From Glaciecola sp. (GTDB lineage: Bacteria; Pseudomonadota; Gammaproteobacteria; Enterobacterales; Alteromonadaceae): a stretch of DNA of 64,000 nucleotides. Numbering within the stretch: the stretch's first letter is position 1; the number at the start of each line of letters is the position of its first letter. Below, in pieces: positions 19,920 to 27,056 of the stretch. The position numbers and the translations under genes are program-made. The notes under the pieces are model-generated. The model had not been told where the DNA came from. It saw only the letters and a program-made list of their open reading frames with translations, and did no database searches. Where the stretch lies: contig JAQXDG010000089.1 in the NCBI GenBank assembly GCA_029251505.1, forward strand, positions 1-64,000. Reading direction: 5' to 3'.

Positions 19920-19951
19920 CATTGGTGTCTGTTTTACCACAGACACCAATG
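19920..19951. terminator. Perfect 12-bp stem-loop spanning the apbE stop codon
   Basis: CATTGGTGTCTG-TTTTACCA-CAGACACCAATG; no T tract, so terminator role uncertain. Confidence 0.5.
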
Positions 19952-20845
19952 GGTCACTGACTGCTCTTGTAAAAATACTTCCGCTTGATCGCCTTGTAAT
20001 ATGGCTAATGTCGCCAACAATCCAGCTTGGGTACAGTTTTCTCCTGCCACTGTCACCGATCGTGGCGCGCCGATAACCGGATATCCCGTCTGCGGGCTGA
20101 TAACATGCCCATAACGCACCCCATCTTTTAATAAAAATCGTCGAGCATCTCCACTTGTCGCTAAACCACCTTGAGCTATGGTCACTAACATTTGCGTAGC
20201 ACGAGCAGGATCAGGGTGTTCAATGCCGACTTGCCAATACGGATGAGCATGACGTGGACGTGTCACTGCAATATCGCCACCAAAGTTCACCAATACCGAC
20301 GCACTAGGGAGTATTTCACGCGCGAGTTGTACACAACGGTCAACCGCATATTCTTTGCCTATCCCACCTAAATCTATAGCGTAACCGGGTAGTAAGCGCA
20401 CACTACTATCAGTTAACAAGACATTTTGCCAGCCGCTGCACACCAGACAAGCGTCAATCATGGTTTGCGAGGGAATGTTGTCACTCCCATCAAATTGCCA
20501 CACCTGCCCGAGTACTCCACTGGTCACATCAAAGCGCCCGTCACTGAGTTCAAAACAGGTATTAGCAAGGTTTAATAGTTGTTGAGTTTCAGGATCAATC
20601 GCAACGGATTGCCCCTGAGCATGATTAATTTGATGTATGATATTATCATCACGATAGCGGGAATATTTGGTTTCAATGCGCCAAGCTTCCGCTGCGATGG
20701 CTTGAGTCACGGCAAATGCTTGTTGCTGATCAGTGCTATCAATAAGCACTTCACAGGGTGAAGCCATAGCAAAAAAGTGACCACAAATGTGATCACTCCT
20801 GACTTCTATTGAGACTTCCCGTACACCGTTATTTGTCATTAACAC
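19934..20845 (-). CDS. apbE: FAD:protein FMN transferase (ApbE family), no obvious signal peptide
   Basis: FFAMASPCEVLI, YSRYRDDNIIHQIN, DLGGIGKEYAVD, VNFGGDIAV, ATSGDARRF, GHVISPQTG. Confidence 0.92.
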   Translation of the reverse strand: MLMTNNGVREVSIEVRSDHICGHFFAMASPCEVLIDSTDQQQAFAVTQAIAAEAWRIETKYSRYRDDNIIHQINHAQGQSVAIDPETQQLLNLANTCFELSDGRFDVTSGVLGQVWQFDGSDNIPSQTMIDACLVCSGWQNVLLTDSSVRLLPGYAIDLGGIGKEYAVDRCVQLAREILPSASVLVNFGGDIAVTRPRHAHPYWQVGIEHPDPARATQMLVTIAQGGLATSGDARRFLLKDGVRYGHVISPQTGYPVIGAPRSVTVAGENCTQAGLLATLAILQGDQAEVFLQEQSVTHWCLW

Positions 20846-20851
20846 TCATCG

Positions 20852-22246
20852 TTAAAACTGATAATTAAACTGTACTATCAGTGCTTTTATACTCGGATAC
20901 AAGTCCAATTCAGCAAGTTGCCCTGGTTCGGCAAAGCCAGCATTTTTCGGATTTTGTTGATAATATTCAACTCGCACAGCCCAAGCATCACCATTATCTA
21001 GTTTTTGTCCGTATTTTAACCCCACCGTATAGGCATCCATATCGCCTAAACGATAATCCGCACTCGCATAAGTAGGTAGCGGTTGATCACTCAATAAAAA
21101 CGGCTGATAAAATTCAGCAGCACTTTGTTGATAATAACGCAGATGCGGTTGAATATAACTGTTATCCGACAAATTATAGCGTAAGCGTGACTCTAAAGTG
21201 TGCGATTGAATATCCCAATCATCGGTTGCAAAACGGTAAGAAAAATCTACGACGCCACTGTCCATCGCGTATTTAGTCTGCCAGTACACATTATGTTTTG
21301 TACGAGAATCAGGTCGTGATTCAAACAGAGTATCTTGCACTGTACCTTGGTTATTGACGACAGAAACCAGTTTGTAAGGATCATTCAAATAGCCATCCGA
21401 CACGGACATACCATAATTAAGCTGCATGATCGTGCGGCGATTAATGATTTGCGTCAGGCCAAATAAAACGTCAATGGTATCTTTGTCTTGTGCGCCGTCA
21501 CGACTGCCATAGTGGTTTTCATGGTCATCAAATTCGGTATTGCCTGAACCCTCATCATCTCGATAGTCATCATATAAATCATAATCACTTAAGCTGTTTA
21601 ATACTGAGATGCTACCCAGTCTTTCTGGCGTGCCACCAACCGGATCAATACTATCAAACTGATAGGATAAGCCTAATGATAGTGTGGTATTTTTTTGATT
21701 AAAATCACGGGCTAATGAGCCATTTACGCCAAGGGATAAATAGTCATATTCTTTCGAAAAATGCACACCGGTTGATCCGCGCAAATCCGTCCCTAGTGGT
21801 TGTGTCCACTGGGCATTTAACTGTACACGAGAATCTTTAAACGTATCATCTAACGGAGTTTCACCAGCAGCCACTGCATAACCTGAATTACCCGATGGGC
21901 CTGAATAGGTCTGTACCGTGTCTTGCGGCACTGCGCCCGTAGCGGATGCGCCTGTTAAACCATCGAATGTCACTTTACCATTGAAAATATGTTCATCACC
22001 AAAGTCTTTGGTTGCACTGATCACACCTTCAACTAAGCTGACTCGGTCGGTTTCACCATAATACAAGATTGCGGTATCAAACTTCCACTCGTCTGCCGTG
22101 TTGCTATTTGCTTGTGCAAGCGGGCTAGCCGTGCCTAATAATGCACAAGTTGCTAATGCTAAGGTTGCTGCAATCGGTTTTGGTTTAGTGACCGTTGAGT
22201 CCGCTAAACCAATTGATGAATGATGATCAGTTAGTTGCATCCACAA
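20852..22246 (-). CDS. DUF3570 domain protein, predicted outer-membrane beta barrel
   Basis: Recognised DUF3570 N-terminal pattern (FDGLTGASATGAVPQDTVQTYSGPSG, PLDDTFKDSRVQL); beta-rich, terminal VQFNYQF; start may be 22240. Confidence 0.85.
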   Translation of the reverse strand: MWMQLTDHHSSIGLADSTVTKPKPIAATLALATCALLGTASPLAQANSNTADEWKFDTAILYYGETDRVSLVEGVISATKDFGDEHIFNGKVTFDGLTGASATGAVPQDTVQTYSGPSGNSGYAVAAGETPLDDTFKDSRVQLNAQWTQPLGTDLRGSTGVHFSKEYDYLSLGVNGSLARDFNQKNTTLSLGLSYQFDSIDPVGGTPERLGSISVLNSLSDYDLYDDYRDDEGSGNTEFDDHENHYGSRDGAQDKDTIDVLFGLTQIINRRTIMQLNYGMSVSDGYLNDPYKLVSVVNNQGTVQDTLFESRPDSRTKHNVYWQTKYAMDSGVVDFSYRFATDDWDIQSHTLESRLRYNLSDNSYIQPHLRYYQQSAAEFYQPFLLSDQPLPTYASADYRLGDMDAYTVGLKYGQKLDNGDAWAVRVEYYQQNPKNAGFAEPGQLAELDLYPSIKALIVQFNYQF

Positions 22247-22466: not shown

Positions 22467-23003
22467 TTATTCCGCAATTAATTGAGCAATACTGTGCTCA
22501 TATTTGGGTATTTGTTTGCTAAAAAAACCGGTATGAGCGAAGCGGACTTGGCCGCGCTTATCAATTAAATAACTGCTCGGCATGCCGACGACTTGATAAG
22601 CTTGAGCAAGCTCACCGTTAGGATTAAATTCAACATGAAACGCTGCGGGATTATCTTGTAAAAATTGCTGAGCGAGTTCAGCCTCTTGATCTAAATTGAT
22701 CGCCAGGACGACTAAATCATCGCCATACTGCTGTTGAATTTGGTTCATCCAAGGAAATGATCGACGACACGGCACACACCATGATGCCCAAAAATCGACA
22801 TAAACGACTTTACCTTTGAGATCATTTAAGGAGGTTGCTTGAGTGCCAGTTGTCGCGAGGTGATTAGGCTGTTGTAGAGATATAGGCGGTGCTGGATAAT
22901 TGACAGACTTAGCAAATACAAGGTGCGTTTGCCCTGCCCACAGCCCTATCGATAGAACTATCAGGCAGACAAGGATAGATAACATACGTGTAAGTTGGCG
23001 CAT
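22467..23003 (-). CDS. TlpA/ResA-like thioredoxin-fold protein
   Basis: VYVDFWASWCVPCRRSFPWMN; ORF opens with TTG at 23024, ATG at 23003 more likely. Confidence 0.88.
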   Translation of the reverse strand: MRQLTRMLSILVCLIVLSIGLWAGQTHLVFAKSVNYPAPPISLQQPNHLATTGTQATSLNDLKGKVVYVDFWASWCVPCRRSFPWMNQIQQQYGDDLVVLAINLDQEAELAQQFLQDNPAAFHVEFNPNGELAQAYQVVGMPSSYLIDKRGQVRFAHTGFFSKQIPKYEHSIAQLIAE

Positions 23004-23050
23004 AAAAATACTATGGTTAATCAATGATAAACTTAGATTAACCAGCGAAA

Positions 23051-23072: not shown

Positions 23073-23810
23073 TTAAAAACTCCACTGCAAACCGGCACGC
23101 AAAGTGTGATCTTTACTATCACCGTTAAAGCCTTTAATAAATGCTAATTCCCACTTCAGTTGTTGCTGCGGACTAAACTTTTTGACACCCATAAAACCGG
23201 GGCCAATGCCAAAAAAATCCTTGTCAGTGTACAACTCTAACGCAGGTTGAAAAGCGGGTCTAAGACGATAACGATATTGCATTCTAAATTCGCTTTCTAA
23301 TACCGAATCAATGGCTTGCCCAAAGACGTATTTAACAATGAGATTCGTCGCTAAATGAGTCCGACCAAATTGTTTTTCATTGATCAAGCCAATACTCGTT
23401 TTAAAATGATCGACTTTGCGGGACTTTTCTATTTCAAAGATAAAAGCCGTATCAGCCCAGTACTGACCTTGCTCACCGAGCATCCATCGTGCTTCCACTT
23501 CATATTCAGCCAAACTGACATTTTCTAGCTCATCACGTTCAGCACTTAAAAACACTTCTACCATGAATCCTTCAGTAAACGCATGCCCATAACCGACTCG
23601 ATGAAATAACTCATTGCCGGTATCCGTTTTACGAGAAACCAAGCGCCACTCAATATCACGCTCAAAGGGAAGGATATTCGGTTTGTAGACTTTATCCACA
23701 ACAATATCAGCATAACTGGTTGTGCTTGCCATGATCATGCTCGCAAGTAGCAACCACCCGAGCGCGCTAGCAAACGATTGTTGTAGTGTTAATTGTTGTT
23801 CACGACACAT
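23073..23810 (-). CDS. Hypothetical outer-membrane-like protein
   Basis: Signal peptide, beta-rich, terminal aromatic LRAGLQWSF; overlaps the FTR1-like gene by 11 nt. Confidence 0.65.
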   Translation of the reverse strand: MCREQQLTLQQSFASALGWLLLASMIMASTTSYADIVVDKVYKPNILPFERDIEWRLVSRKTDTGNELFHRVGYGHAFTEGFMVEVFLSAERDELENVSLAEYEVEARWMLGEQGQYWADTAFIFEIEKSRKVDHFKTSIGLINEKQFGRTHLATNLIVKYVFGQAIDSVLESEFRMQYRYRLRPAFQPALELYTDKDFFGIGPGFMGVKKFSPQQQLKWELAFIKGFNGDSKDHTLRAGLQWSF

Positions 23811-24576
23811 ACGATTTCTCTTTTCTTAAATACGATTTGGCGTAGATGAACCGCCATCCCCATGCTGCGCCAAATACCAACACGAACAGGTATACACTTA
23901 ACTCCAAGACACTTAGCGTGGCATTGATCCCCATTAAAGCATGCACTAGCACACCCAATACCGACGATTCATTGAACCATTGGCTCATATCCACCAGCGG
24001 ATCGGTCCAGGTTAACCAGCCAATTTGCGCTAGCCACTGTTCAATCAGCACGACTCGTCCGGCAATGAATAACCATAACACAGCCCAAACCACATAACGC
24101 CTAGAGAGCACATACACTGCCAGTAAGTACCAACATATCGCCAATGCTAGACTGACTAACGCCCCCAAACTTAACCCTGTCAATAAGACGGTCAAAGAAG
24201 TATTCGGAGCGTGTGATTTGGTCAGGACATAGAGCCATAAAGATGTACTTTGTGGAAGGTGAATCAACACCGTAGCCACGACTATCAACATCAATGTACA
24301 GCGATTCACGGGACGGTGAGGATAACGAAAAAAACCAATAGAAATTACGACTGACACGAATACGGTAAAACTGTAAAACCATTCCAATGTATCAATCGGC
24401 AACACATTAATGATGGTATTAATATTGACACCAAACAAGACCAAAATGAGAATACTGACCAACGTCACACTGCGCTTAAAGCCTGCTACAGGCGGTCGTA
24501 AAATATAAATCAAACTAATAAACCAGAATACTGGCAAACACACTTTCAAGCTCAGGATTGCACTACTTATTAGCAT
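23800..24576 (-). CDS. FTR1-like integral membrane permease, degenerate
   Basis: N-terminus LISSAILSLKVCLPVFWFISL and C-terminus LVDMSQWFNESSVLGVLVHALMGINATLSVLELSVYL resemble FTR1-family proteins; start ATG 24576 overlaps the cupredoxin stop. Confidence 0.6.
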   Translation of the reverse strand: MLISSAILSLKVCLPVFWFISLIYILRPPVAGFKRSVTLVSILILVLFGVNINTIINVLPIDTLEWFYSFTVFVSVVISIGFFRYPHRPVNRCTLMLIVVATVLIHLPQSTSLWLYVLTKSHAPNTSLTVLLTGLSLGALVSLALAICWYLLAVYVLSRRYVVWAVLWLFIAGRVVLIEQWLAQIGWLTWTDPLVDMSQWFNESSVLGVLVHALMGINATLSVLELSVYLFVLVFGAAWGWRFIYAKSYLRKEKSYVS

Positions 24577-25012
24577 CTTCCCCCCCTTTATCAGGTTGTG
24601 TGTTGAGGCTGTTGGATTGTTGCTGTGCTTTATATTCATGTAATGGTAATACGACAAGCGAACCACGCGCGGTATCAGGGTGATATTCACCAATAAAACC
24701 ATATTCGCCAGACGCTAATTTAGGTAAATAGATGATGGTAGGACGATTGGGGAAAATCACTTTTTCACGGTTTAATGCAAAACTATCAAACTCTTCTGGT
24801 GTCGTATCCAGATTATGTATAATTAATTGAATCGGTGAATTTTCTGGTACATAAATTCGACTTGGATAAAATAAATGTTGCTCAATGGTGATACGTTGGA
24901 TCACCGTGCCCGCGCCCATTAATAAGGGTATAGATAGCAGTACGCTGCTTAATCCAAGCGTTTTCAAGATGTTTACTAGGGCGCTGCTGGTGCTTAATGT
25001 TTGCTGGTACAT
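24563..25012 (-). CDS. Cupredoxin-domain protein (EfeO/P19 type)
   Basis: IIHNLDTTPEEFDSFALNREKVIFP, YGFIGEYHPDTARGSLVV; N-terminal hydrophobic segment. Confidence 0.82.
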   Translation of the reverse strand: MYQQTLSTSSALVNILKTLGLSSVLLSIPLLMGAGTVIQRITIEQHLFYPSRIYVPENSPIQLIIHNLDTTPEEFDSFALNREKVIFPNRPTIIYLPKLASGEYGFIGEYHPDTARGSLVVLPLHEYKAQQQSNSLNTQPDKGGEDANK

Positions 25013-25017
25013 CTCGA

Positions 25018-26367
25018 TTACGCCCGCTTGACAGGTAAGTGCATAGCAACACACAACCCCCCTAACGCAGTACTATTTCTAAACTGAATGTCGCCATAGT
25101 GCACATCAACAATTTGTTTGACCAATGCCAGCCCTAATCCTGCACCTTGAATTTGTTTATGTTGGGGACCACGATAAAAACGCTGACTCATTTGTGTTAA
25201 TAATTGCTGATTTAACGGTTCGCCTTCATTTTCTACACGTATTTCTATGGTCGGTTTAGCTGCCATCACTAAACGCAGTGTCACCAAAATATTAGAGTAG
25301 CTATTGGCATATTTATTGGCATTGAGGATCAAATTAATAAATACCGTAGAGAGTAATTCGCTCTCCGACTCTATCGAAAAATCCTCCGGTAAATCACACT
25401 GCAATTCAATATTTTGGTGTTTTTGTAATAATTGCGGATACACTTCACTAATTACATCTTGCATCAAATGCTCTATTGCCACTGGATGCCATTTAATTTG
25501 ATGTTGATCAGGGTGCGTTTGTGACAATAATAAGAGTTGGTTGACTATTTTGGTTAGGCGTTTTACTTCTACTAAATTTTTACGTAATCGAGGATGGTGG
25601 GCGCTATCGATTTCTTCCATCGCATTTTGCAATGATATGGCTAAAATGCTTAAGGGGGTCCGCAACTCATGTGCCACATTGCCACTAAAACTTTGCTCGC
25701 GCTCAAGACCCGCTTGGATTTTACCTAGAAGTTGATTGATTGTGCTGACCACCGGCTCCAATTCAGTAAACTGACTATCGAGTCTTATCGGATCAAGTTG
25801 AGTCAATGCCCGCGATGACAACAATGCCGTCAATTGCTTTAACGGCCGCAAGCCCATCCTCACTGACGTAAAGATAAGTAATCCAAAAATTGGTATGGCG
25901 AGCACAAACGGTAAGATCGCCGATGTGATAAAAGCATCGGTTTTCGCCGCCCGATCCGATATTGAGTATGCAACGATAACCGTTTTATCGGCATCGACTA
26001 ACGTCAATACTCGCCAGCGATCATAATTAAAATTAGTTTCACTAAACCCTAACTCAGTGGCAATCAAGATATCCGGTGCTTGGCTAGAACGAAAAACTAG
26101 CTGTTGATCTTGCCAGACTTGTAATGCCAGATCACCTCGGTTGAATACCGTCTGCGCTTGAGGATATTGGTTATCCATATCAGGTAACCTCGATTGTGCA
26201 AAAACATTCAGTGCTAAGACACTTTGACCTAGGGCTTGAAGTTCAGCATCATAAAGCGCTTGAGTATTATTCTGTAGTTGTTTATAGCCTGCGACCACAG
26301 CGAGTGTAATCACCAAAATAATACTCGATACAAGGAGTAACGTAATAAGACGCTGGATTGACTTCAT
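25018..26367 (-). CDS. Two-component sensor histidine kinase
   Basis: NVAHELRTPLSIL H-box, GAGLGLALVKQIV G-box, two TM segments flanking a periplasmic domain. Confidence 0.93.
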   Translation of the reverse strand: MKSIQRLITLLLVSSIILVITLAVVAGYKQLQNNTQALYDAELQALGQSVLALNVFAQSRLPDMDNQYPQAQTVFNRGDLALQVWQDQQLVFRSSQAPDILIATELGFSETNFNYDRWRVLTLVDADKTVIVAYSISDRAAKTDAFITSAILPFVLAIPIFGLLIFTSVRMGLRPLKQLTALLSSRALTQLDPIRLDSQFTELEPVVSTINQLLGKIQAGLEREQSFSGNVAHELRTPLSILAISLQNAMEEIDSAHHPRLRKNLVEVKRLTKIVNQLLLLSQTHPDQHQIKWHPVAIEHLMQDVISEVYPQLLQKHQNIELQCDLPEDFSIESESELLSTVFINLILNANKYANSYSNILVTLRLVMAAKPTIEIRVENEGEPLNQQLLTQMSQRFYRGPQHKQIQGAGLGLALVKQIVDVHYGDIQFRNSTALGGLCVAMHLPVKRA

Positions 26368-26384
26368 TTATGTAACAGTTTCAT

Positions 26385-27056
26385 TTAACTAACGGCTATG
26401 TGCTTTTTAACACAGTATCCCACACCACGAATAGTATTGATAAAATCTTTTGGGAGTTTTTTCCGTAAGTTATGTACATGCACTTCAATCGCGTTACTCG
26501 ACACTTCATCGCCCCACTCATACAACATGGTTTCTAATTGAGATTTGGACACAATCCGGTCGGCGCGTTCCATTAACGCTCTCAAAATCATAAATTCTTT
26601 TTTGGGTAATGCCAGAGGGATATCTTGCACTGTCACCGCCATAGAATCGGTACGTAATCTAACATCTGCAACGTGAATATCTGAAGAGGTAACCGTGCCT
26701 AGACGCCGTTGCAACACGCGTAATCGCGCCAATAACTCATCAAGCTCAAAGGGTTTTGGTAGATAATCATCGGCACCAGCATCTAATCCTGCCACTTTAT
26801 CTGATAACTGACCTCTTGCGGTCAGAACTAATATTGGTAAGGTCAAACCCAATTTTCGGATTCTAGTTAGCACTTGCAAACCATCTATATCTGGTAATCC
26901 AAGATCTAAAATCATTAAATCAAAATCCCCATTTTGGGCTGCGACAATGGCTTGCTTACCTGACGATAAGTGTGACACCGCATAGTTCGCTTTGCGCAAT
27001 GATTGACAAATTTCATCTGCAAGTGCGAGTTCATCTTCAATAAGTAAAATATGCAT
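26385..27056 (-). CDS. OmpR-family response regulator, QseB/PmrA-like
   Basis: MHILLIEDELALADEI receiver; LPKKEFMILRALMERADRIVSKSQLETMLYEWGDEVSSNAIEVHVHNLRKKL DNA-binding domain. Confidence 0.93.
   Translation of the reverse strand: MHILLIEDELALADEICQSLRKANYAVSHLSSGKQAIVAAQNGDFDLMILDLGLPDIDGLQVLTRIRKLGLTLPILVLTARGQLSDKVAGLDAGADDYLPKPFELDELLARLRVLQRRLGTVTSSDIHVADVRLRTDSMAVTVQDIPLALPKKEFMILRALMERADRIVSKSQLETMLYEWGDEVSSNAIEVHVHNLRKKLPKDFINTIRGVGYCVKKHIAVS

Follow-up and report, generated by a model that had tools for sequence, protein, structure and literature searches.

A conserved candidate FMN-acceptor motif in a predicted outer-membrane DUF3570 protein encoded beside a signal-less ApbE in Glaciecola sp.

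The window analysed here is a stretch of 64,000 nucleotides from Glaciecola sp. (GenBank assembly GCA_029251505.1, contig JAQXDG010000089.1, positions 1 to 64,000), and all of its features described below lie on the minus strand. The first genes of the same-strand run encode a response regulator (26385-27056) and a histidine kinase (25018-26367), together spanning 25018..27056. They are followed by a cupredoxin-like exported protein with a profile match to PF13473 (24563..25054), a multi-span membrane protein with weak EfeU/FTR1 resemblance (23800..24576), and a β-rich exported protein of no known family, a recurrent neighbour (23073..23810). Behind this module lies an operon in the order TlpA-DUF4266(CXC)-DUF3570-ApbE. 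It comprises a TlpA/ResA-like thiol-disulfide oxidoreductase with the sequence WASWCVPC (22467..23024), a DUF4266 lipoprotein (PF14086; 22231..22455) ending in GGGCGCN and thus in CXC, the DUF3570 protein (PF12094; 20852..22240), and an ApbE-type FAD:protein FMN transferase (PF02424, 206.7 bits; 19934..20845). The initial annotation had put apbE two genes away from DUF3570, which is wrong, as it is the immediate downstream neighbour. DsbD is encoded elsewhere in the window genome.

The resemblance of the membrane protein to NCBIfam EfeU (E=1.3e-4) is below the cut-off, and neither this permease nor two of its homologues has a Pfam match. An FTR1/EfeU identity was therefore rejected, a value of only ~1e-4 allowing no more specific name than EfeU-like. 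The module at 23073-27056 (response regulator, histidine kinase, cupredoxin, EfeU-like and β-rich proteins) is found near DUF3570, in either orientation, at 12 of the 80 loci compared, and it weakly hints at a link to metal acquisition. As to control of the operon by Fur, a scan of the whole window that allowed as many as 3 mismatches found no consensus Fur box. The TlpA-DUF4266-DUF3570-ApbE set is complete at 68/80 loci; at least two of the loci short of the complete set stop at contig borders (L031, L058).

The DUF3570 protein has 462 amino acids, starts at the ATG at 22240, and carries a signal peptide. It matches PF12094 over its full length (profile positions 2-427 of 427, E=2.3e-163, 544 bits where the cut-off is 25). 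This was the sole domain found by profile search, with no match to the FMN_bind domain of NqrC/RnfG. Residues 93-99 form the predicted acceptor motif D93-G-L-T-G-A-S99 (21944..21964), with Ser99 as the putative FMN-bearing residue. The minus strand from 21964 to 21944 reads gat ggt tta aca ggc gca tcc, inside FDGLTGASATGA, exactly the codons that had been reported. The accompanying description of the motif as near the mature N-terminus holds only loosely, since ~45-50 residues of the mature chain precede it and it stands where the third β-strand ends. The assignment draws on the codons, conservation, shuffled sequences, the published motif definition, and an experiment on the family. According to a 2025 review, the ApbE motif is D-x-x-[S/T]-G-A-[S/T], and Ser is accepted less efficiently than Thr (PMC12052999). 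Among the ~22,400 residues of the window's open frames of 100 codons or more, D-x-x-[ST]-G-A-[ST] occurs once, in DUF3570, and it appears in 0.65% of shuffled DUF3570 sequences. The main argument against a chance match is conservation across homologues.

The homologue set consists of 80 loci from named genomes, ranging from Alteromonadales to Acidobacteriota, with other phyla contributing few loci. D93, L95, T/S96, G97 and S/T99 are present in 80/80 homologues and A98 in 78/80, while the residue between D93 and L95 varies freely. Position 99 is Ser in 71 and Thr in 9. A linked ApbE is present at 75/80 loci. The motif is thus both conserved and co-occurring with apbE, the two patterns that the initial annotation had proposed to look for. 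The correlation is imperfect, as one genome (G052) has degenerate TGPS and SGSS copies together with one SGAS copy and is without a signal-less ApbE.

Some relatives carry the motif twice, and three of them (L019, L022, L023) have MSGAT or MSGAS at the second position. The aligned segment of the window protein is P115-S116-G117 (21890..21898) within T-Y-S-G-P-S-G-N, which contains no acceptor motif. S116-G117 is found in 80/80 homologues and P-S-G in nearly all 80. A second acceptor in the window protein was rejected, because there is no other [S/T]GA[S/T] in it; the window subfamily keeps only the first site of the family. A different DUF3570 class reads D-x-[IV]-[ST]-S-A-S-I-D-V or a similar S-S-A-S and is without the motif Gly (L025, L027, L028, L030, L195-L201, L185). 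An adjacent ApbE is seen in only a few loci of this class (L028, L030 and the Hymenobacter locus L185), where it is exported and canonical. The [S/T]GA[S/T] class pairs with the signal-less ApbE clade described below, and a Vibrio locus (L186) has the order TlpA-DUF4266-DUF3570(SGAS)-signal-less ApbE-DsbD.

Flavinylation of DUF3570 by ApbE is not new. The main text of Méheust et al. 2021 (PMC8238504) describes the Chlorobium luteolum DUF3570 as flavinylated by its cognate ApbE upon co-expression in E. coli, with in-gel fluorescence as the readout, and any claim of novelty for this modification is accordingly rejected. That protein has two [S/T]GA[S/T] sites, and the label was abolished only when both acceptor serines were changed to Ala. 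It bore the flavin even though most of it was found in the insoluble pellet of the cells and its purification was under denaturing conditions; ApbE is thus probably able to act on a chain other than a natively folded barrel. The same text describes DsbD/thioredoxin-like/DUF4266/DUF3570/ApbE gene clusters, leaves their function uncertain, and counts 316 such clusters without DsbD. As the window protein is a PF12094 member, the family result supports the earlier proposal that it is an ApbE substrate, and FMN on its Ser99 can be inferred from homology.

The AF2 model of DUF3570, built from 76 sequences, has 16 main strands with a mean pLDDT of 86.7 and a pTM of 0.83. The connections after odd strands are 4, 39, 2, 52, 28, 4, 28 and 19 residues long, and those after even strands 3-5 residues. 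The even strand number, the alternation of short and long connections, and the C-terminal aromatic residue (NYQF) are those of an outer-membrane barrel. Foldseek returned generic outer-membrane barrels only (FadL, OmpG, BcsC, BamA and TonB receptors) at TM-scores of 0.3-0.44, and the idea of a specific solved structural relative was dropped, the best matches all being outer-membrane barrels at low TM-scores. The model and the fold search together favour the outer-membrane location suggested for the protein in the initial annotation. The motif is placed at the transition from strand 3 to loop 2, which covers residues 97-135 with pLDDT 81-95. If both termini are periplasmic, as is usual, the long loops and the motif would be extracellular, a sidedness that follows from the loop lengths and the C-terminal aromatic residue of the model. 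In the extracellular half, 57/276 positions are conserved to at least 95%, charged and aromatic loop residues among them, compared with 13/129 for the periplasmic half (Fisher p=0.011).

The linked ApbE has neither a signal peptide nor a lipobox by hydrophobicity scan and carries a K-E-Y/G variant of the active site. S231 and H247 of the active site are conserved in 75/75 linked ApbEs. In contrast, the conserved Asp position (residue 275) is Gly in 74/75, and the K-G-Y stretch (residues 164-166) has Glu for Gly, giving K-E-Y. Residue 275 was equated with V. cholerae Asp285, one of three conserved catalytic ApbE residues (PMC12052999), on the basis of matching distances from the active-site Ser and His. 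The change from K-G-Y/Asp to K-E-Y/Gly is an apparent metal-site exchange across the clade, judged from the alignment, in which the Glu of K-E-Y may substitute functionally for the missing Asp. In FastTree, the E/G and canonical G/D clades split cleanly, the two sides having support of 0.999 and 0.837.

The signal test was a simple hydrophobicity scan from the previous in-frame stop to the conserved F-x-A-M-A-S-P-C-E. It gave 0/85 credible signals in the E/G clade, where 83 proteins are without a hydrophobic N-terminal stretch. The 2 over the threshold were discounted, one because part of its stretch precedes the only start (L032), the other because it has no upstream start codon (L062). The same scan found a signal in 61/62 canonical G/D ApbEs taken from the window genome and from others, the remaining one being cut by a contig end, and DUF3570, DUF4266 and TlpA at the same loci mostly have one. 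The second ApbE of the window genome (G000:C190, L111) is encoded beside or after nqrF, is canonical, and has a lipoprotein signal. One genome thus apparently keeps two ApbEs in different compartments, a signal-less one linked to DUF3570 and a lipoprotein linked to nqrF. Two other genomes, G091 (100% complete) and G006 (96%), have an [S/T]GA[S/T] DUF3570 and a single ApbE of the signal-less type. A term search of the main text of PMC8238504 found no mention of a cytosolic ApbE. Relative to that main text, the pairing of a signal-less ApbE clade with a putative outer-membrane substrate would be an addition.

DUF4266 ends in GGCGCN at 78/79 loci. Modelled alone with AF2 it reaches pLDDT 61 and its CXC tail is disordered, yet the tail is strongly conserved, as expected for a segment that becomes ordered on a partner. 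The ATG of DUF3570 lies within the last DUF4266 codons (22231-22240); such an overlap is seen in 41/79 loci, which suggests translational coupling.

Taken together, the reading that we favour, and consider reasonably probable, is that Ser99 is flavinylated in the cytoplasm by the signal-less ApbE before Sec export and that the resulting outer-face flavin is fed by a thiol relay. The adjacent ApbE would most likely move FMN from cytoplasmic FAD onto the unfolded DUF3570 preprotein, with a phosphoester bond to Ser99. Sec would then export the flavinylated chain and BAM would fold it into the 16-strand barrel, so that the flavin comes to lie at the extracellular face, at the base of loop 2 and amid conserved residues of the loops. 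In the periplasm, electrons may pass from DsbD to TlpA and on to the CXC at the C-terminus of DUF4266; this lipoprotein would hand them to the barrel flavin for use at or beyond the outer face, possibly for Fe(III) reduction serving the neighbouring EfeU-like uptake module. The cytoplasmic timing, the electron path and the terminal acceptor are inferred, and one flavin at the outer rim is insufficient alone to account for electron passage across the barrel. With an outer-face site, a periplasmic enzyme could act only before assembly, whereas a cytoplasmic enzyme could act on the unfolded preprotein; the published label on largely insoluble DUF3570 (PMC8238504) fits modification of an unfolded chain in the cytoplasm. 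Work with bulky conjugates points to a SecY opening of ~2.4 nm (PMC6028853). A direct precedent for cytoplasmic flavinylation before export was not found in the literature. A broader proposal, to which we give a little less than an even chance, is that the signal-less clade in general flavinylates in the cytoplasm and that the cofactor is carried through Sec and BAM to the extracellular face, beyond the reach of a periplasmic ApbE once the barrel is folded. The result would be a flavin-based electron outlet in which a thiol relay (TlpA and the DUF4266 CXC) replaces multihaem cytochromes.

Also weighing against cytoplasmic modification by the linked enzyme are its Gly in place of a catalytic Asp of the V. 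cholerae Asp285 type and the genome's second ApbE, which could flavinylate DUF3570 in the periplasm. The latter leads to an alternative that we regard as unlikely, in which the canonical lipoprotein ApbE near nqrF modifies DUF3570 in the periplasm and the linked signal-less ApbE serves another, cytoplasmic substrate. The window genome does possess this periplasmic enzyme, at least one further ApbE accompanies the linked one in 29/29 genomes tested through loci, and the known signal-less bacterial ApbE, from Klebsiella, acts on a cytoplasmic fumarate reductase (PMC12052999). However, such a division of labour sits poorly with the signal-less ApbE as a conserved operon partner at 75/80 loci and as the sole ApbE of G091 and G006, and with the sorting of DUF3570 classes, in which [S/T]GA[S/T] proteins pair with the signal-less clade and the few S-S-A-S proteins beside an ApbE (L028, L030, L185) have an exported enzyme.

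A further reading, also quite improbable, has the linked ApbE reach the periplasm by an export route that escapes recognition and modify DUF3570 there, ahead of barrel assembly. Other ApbEs with envelope substrates are exported (PMC12052999), and so simple a scan for signals leaves some room for this route; against it stands the failure to find any credible signal in 85 frames followed back to the previous stop, when the canonical enzymes had one in 61 of 62. Least probable of all, and in our view very improbable, is a site that is unused in the window species, either a relict motif or a glycine loop needed only for barrel folding. The loss of the second family site and the missing catalytic/metal-site Asp of the linked ApbE would agree with disuse. 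Yet all 80 homologues keep D, L, S/T, G and S/T, although the residue between D and L varies freely, and the Asp-to-Gly and Gly-to-Glu changes are clade-wide and not the decay of a single gene.

The attachment of covalent flavins to envelope proteins is assumed to occur outside the cytoplasm. If the present ApbE clade acts before export, a cofactor-bearing chain traverses Sec and BAM. Moreover, a single Ser, predicted to lie at the extracellular end of the barrel, offers a concrete site for testing electron transfer by DUF3570 across the outer membrane, in a system whose function the main text of the 2021 paper calls uncertain (PMC8238504).

The window system shares parts with several known ones. 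The D-x-x-[S/T]-G-A-[S/T] acceptor chemistry is common to DUF3570 and to NqrC/RnfG, which are served by a lipoprotein ApbE. In contrast to these, the window substrate is a predicted outer-membrane barrel in which no FMN-binding domain was found, and its ApbE has no export signal. Klebsiella pneumoniae likewise has a signal-less, cytoplasmic ApbE, but its soluble fumarate reductase is a cytoplasmic substrate (PMC12052999), whereas that of the window is an exported outer-membrane protein. The clusters described in the main text of PMC8238504 share with the window the operon of TlpA-like protein, DUF4266 with CXC, DUF3570 and ApbE; they differ in that the DsbD of the window species lies elsewhere in its genome and that a two-component/cupredoxin/EfeU-like module precedes the operon. 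The C. luteolum pair in the same text (ABB24424.1/ABB24423.1) resembles the window pair in PF12094 membership, in [S/T]GA[S/T] and in the adjoining apbE, and differs in having two acceptor sites where the window protein has one. Another double-motif arrangement occurs in a divergent DUF3570 (L004, G174:C18), whose 904-residue open frame holds two full motifs, QDTWSGATP and PDGVSGATP.
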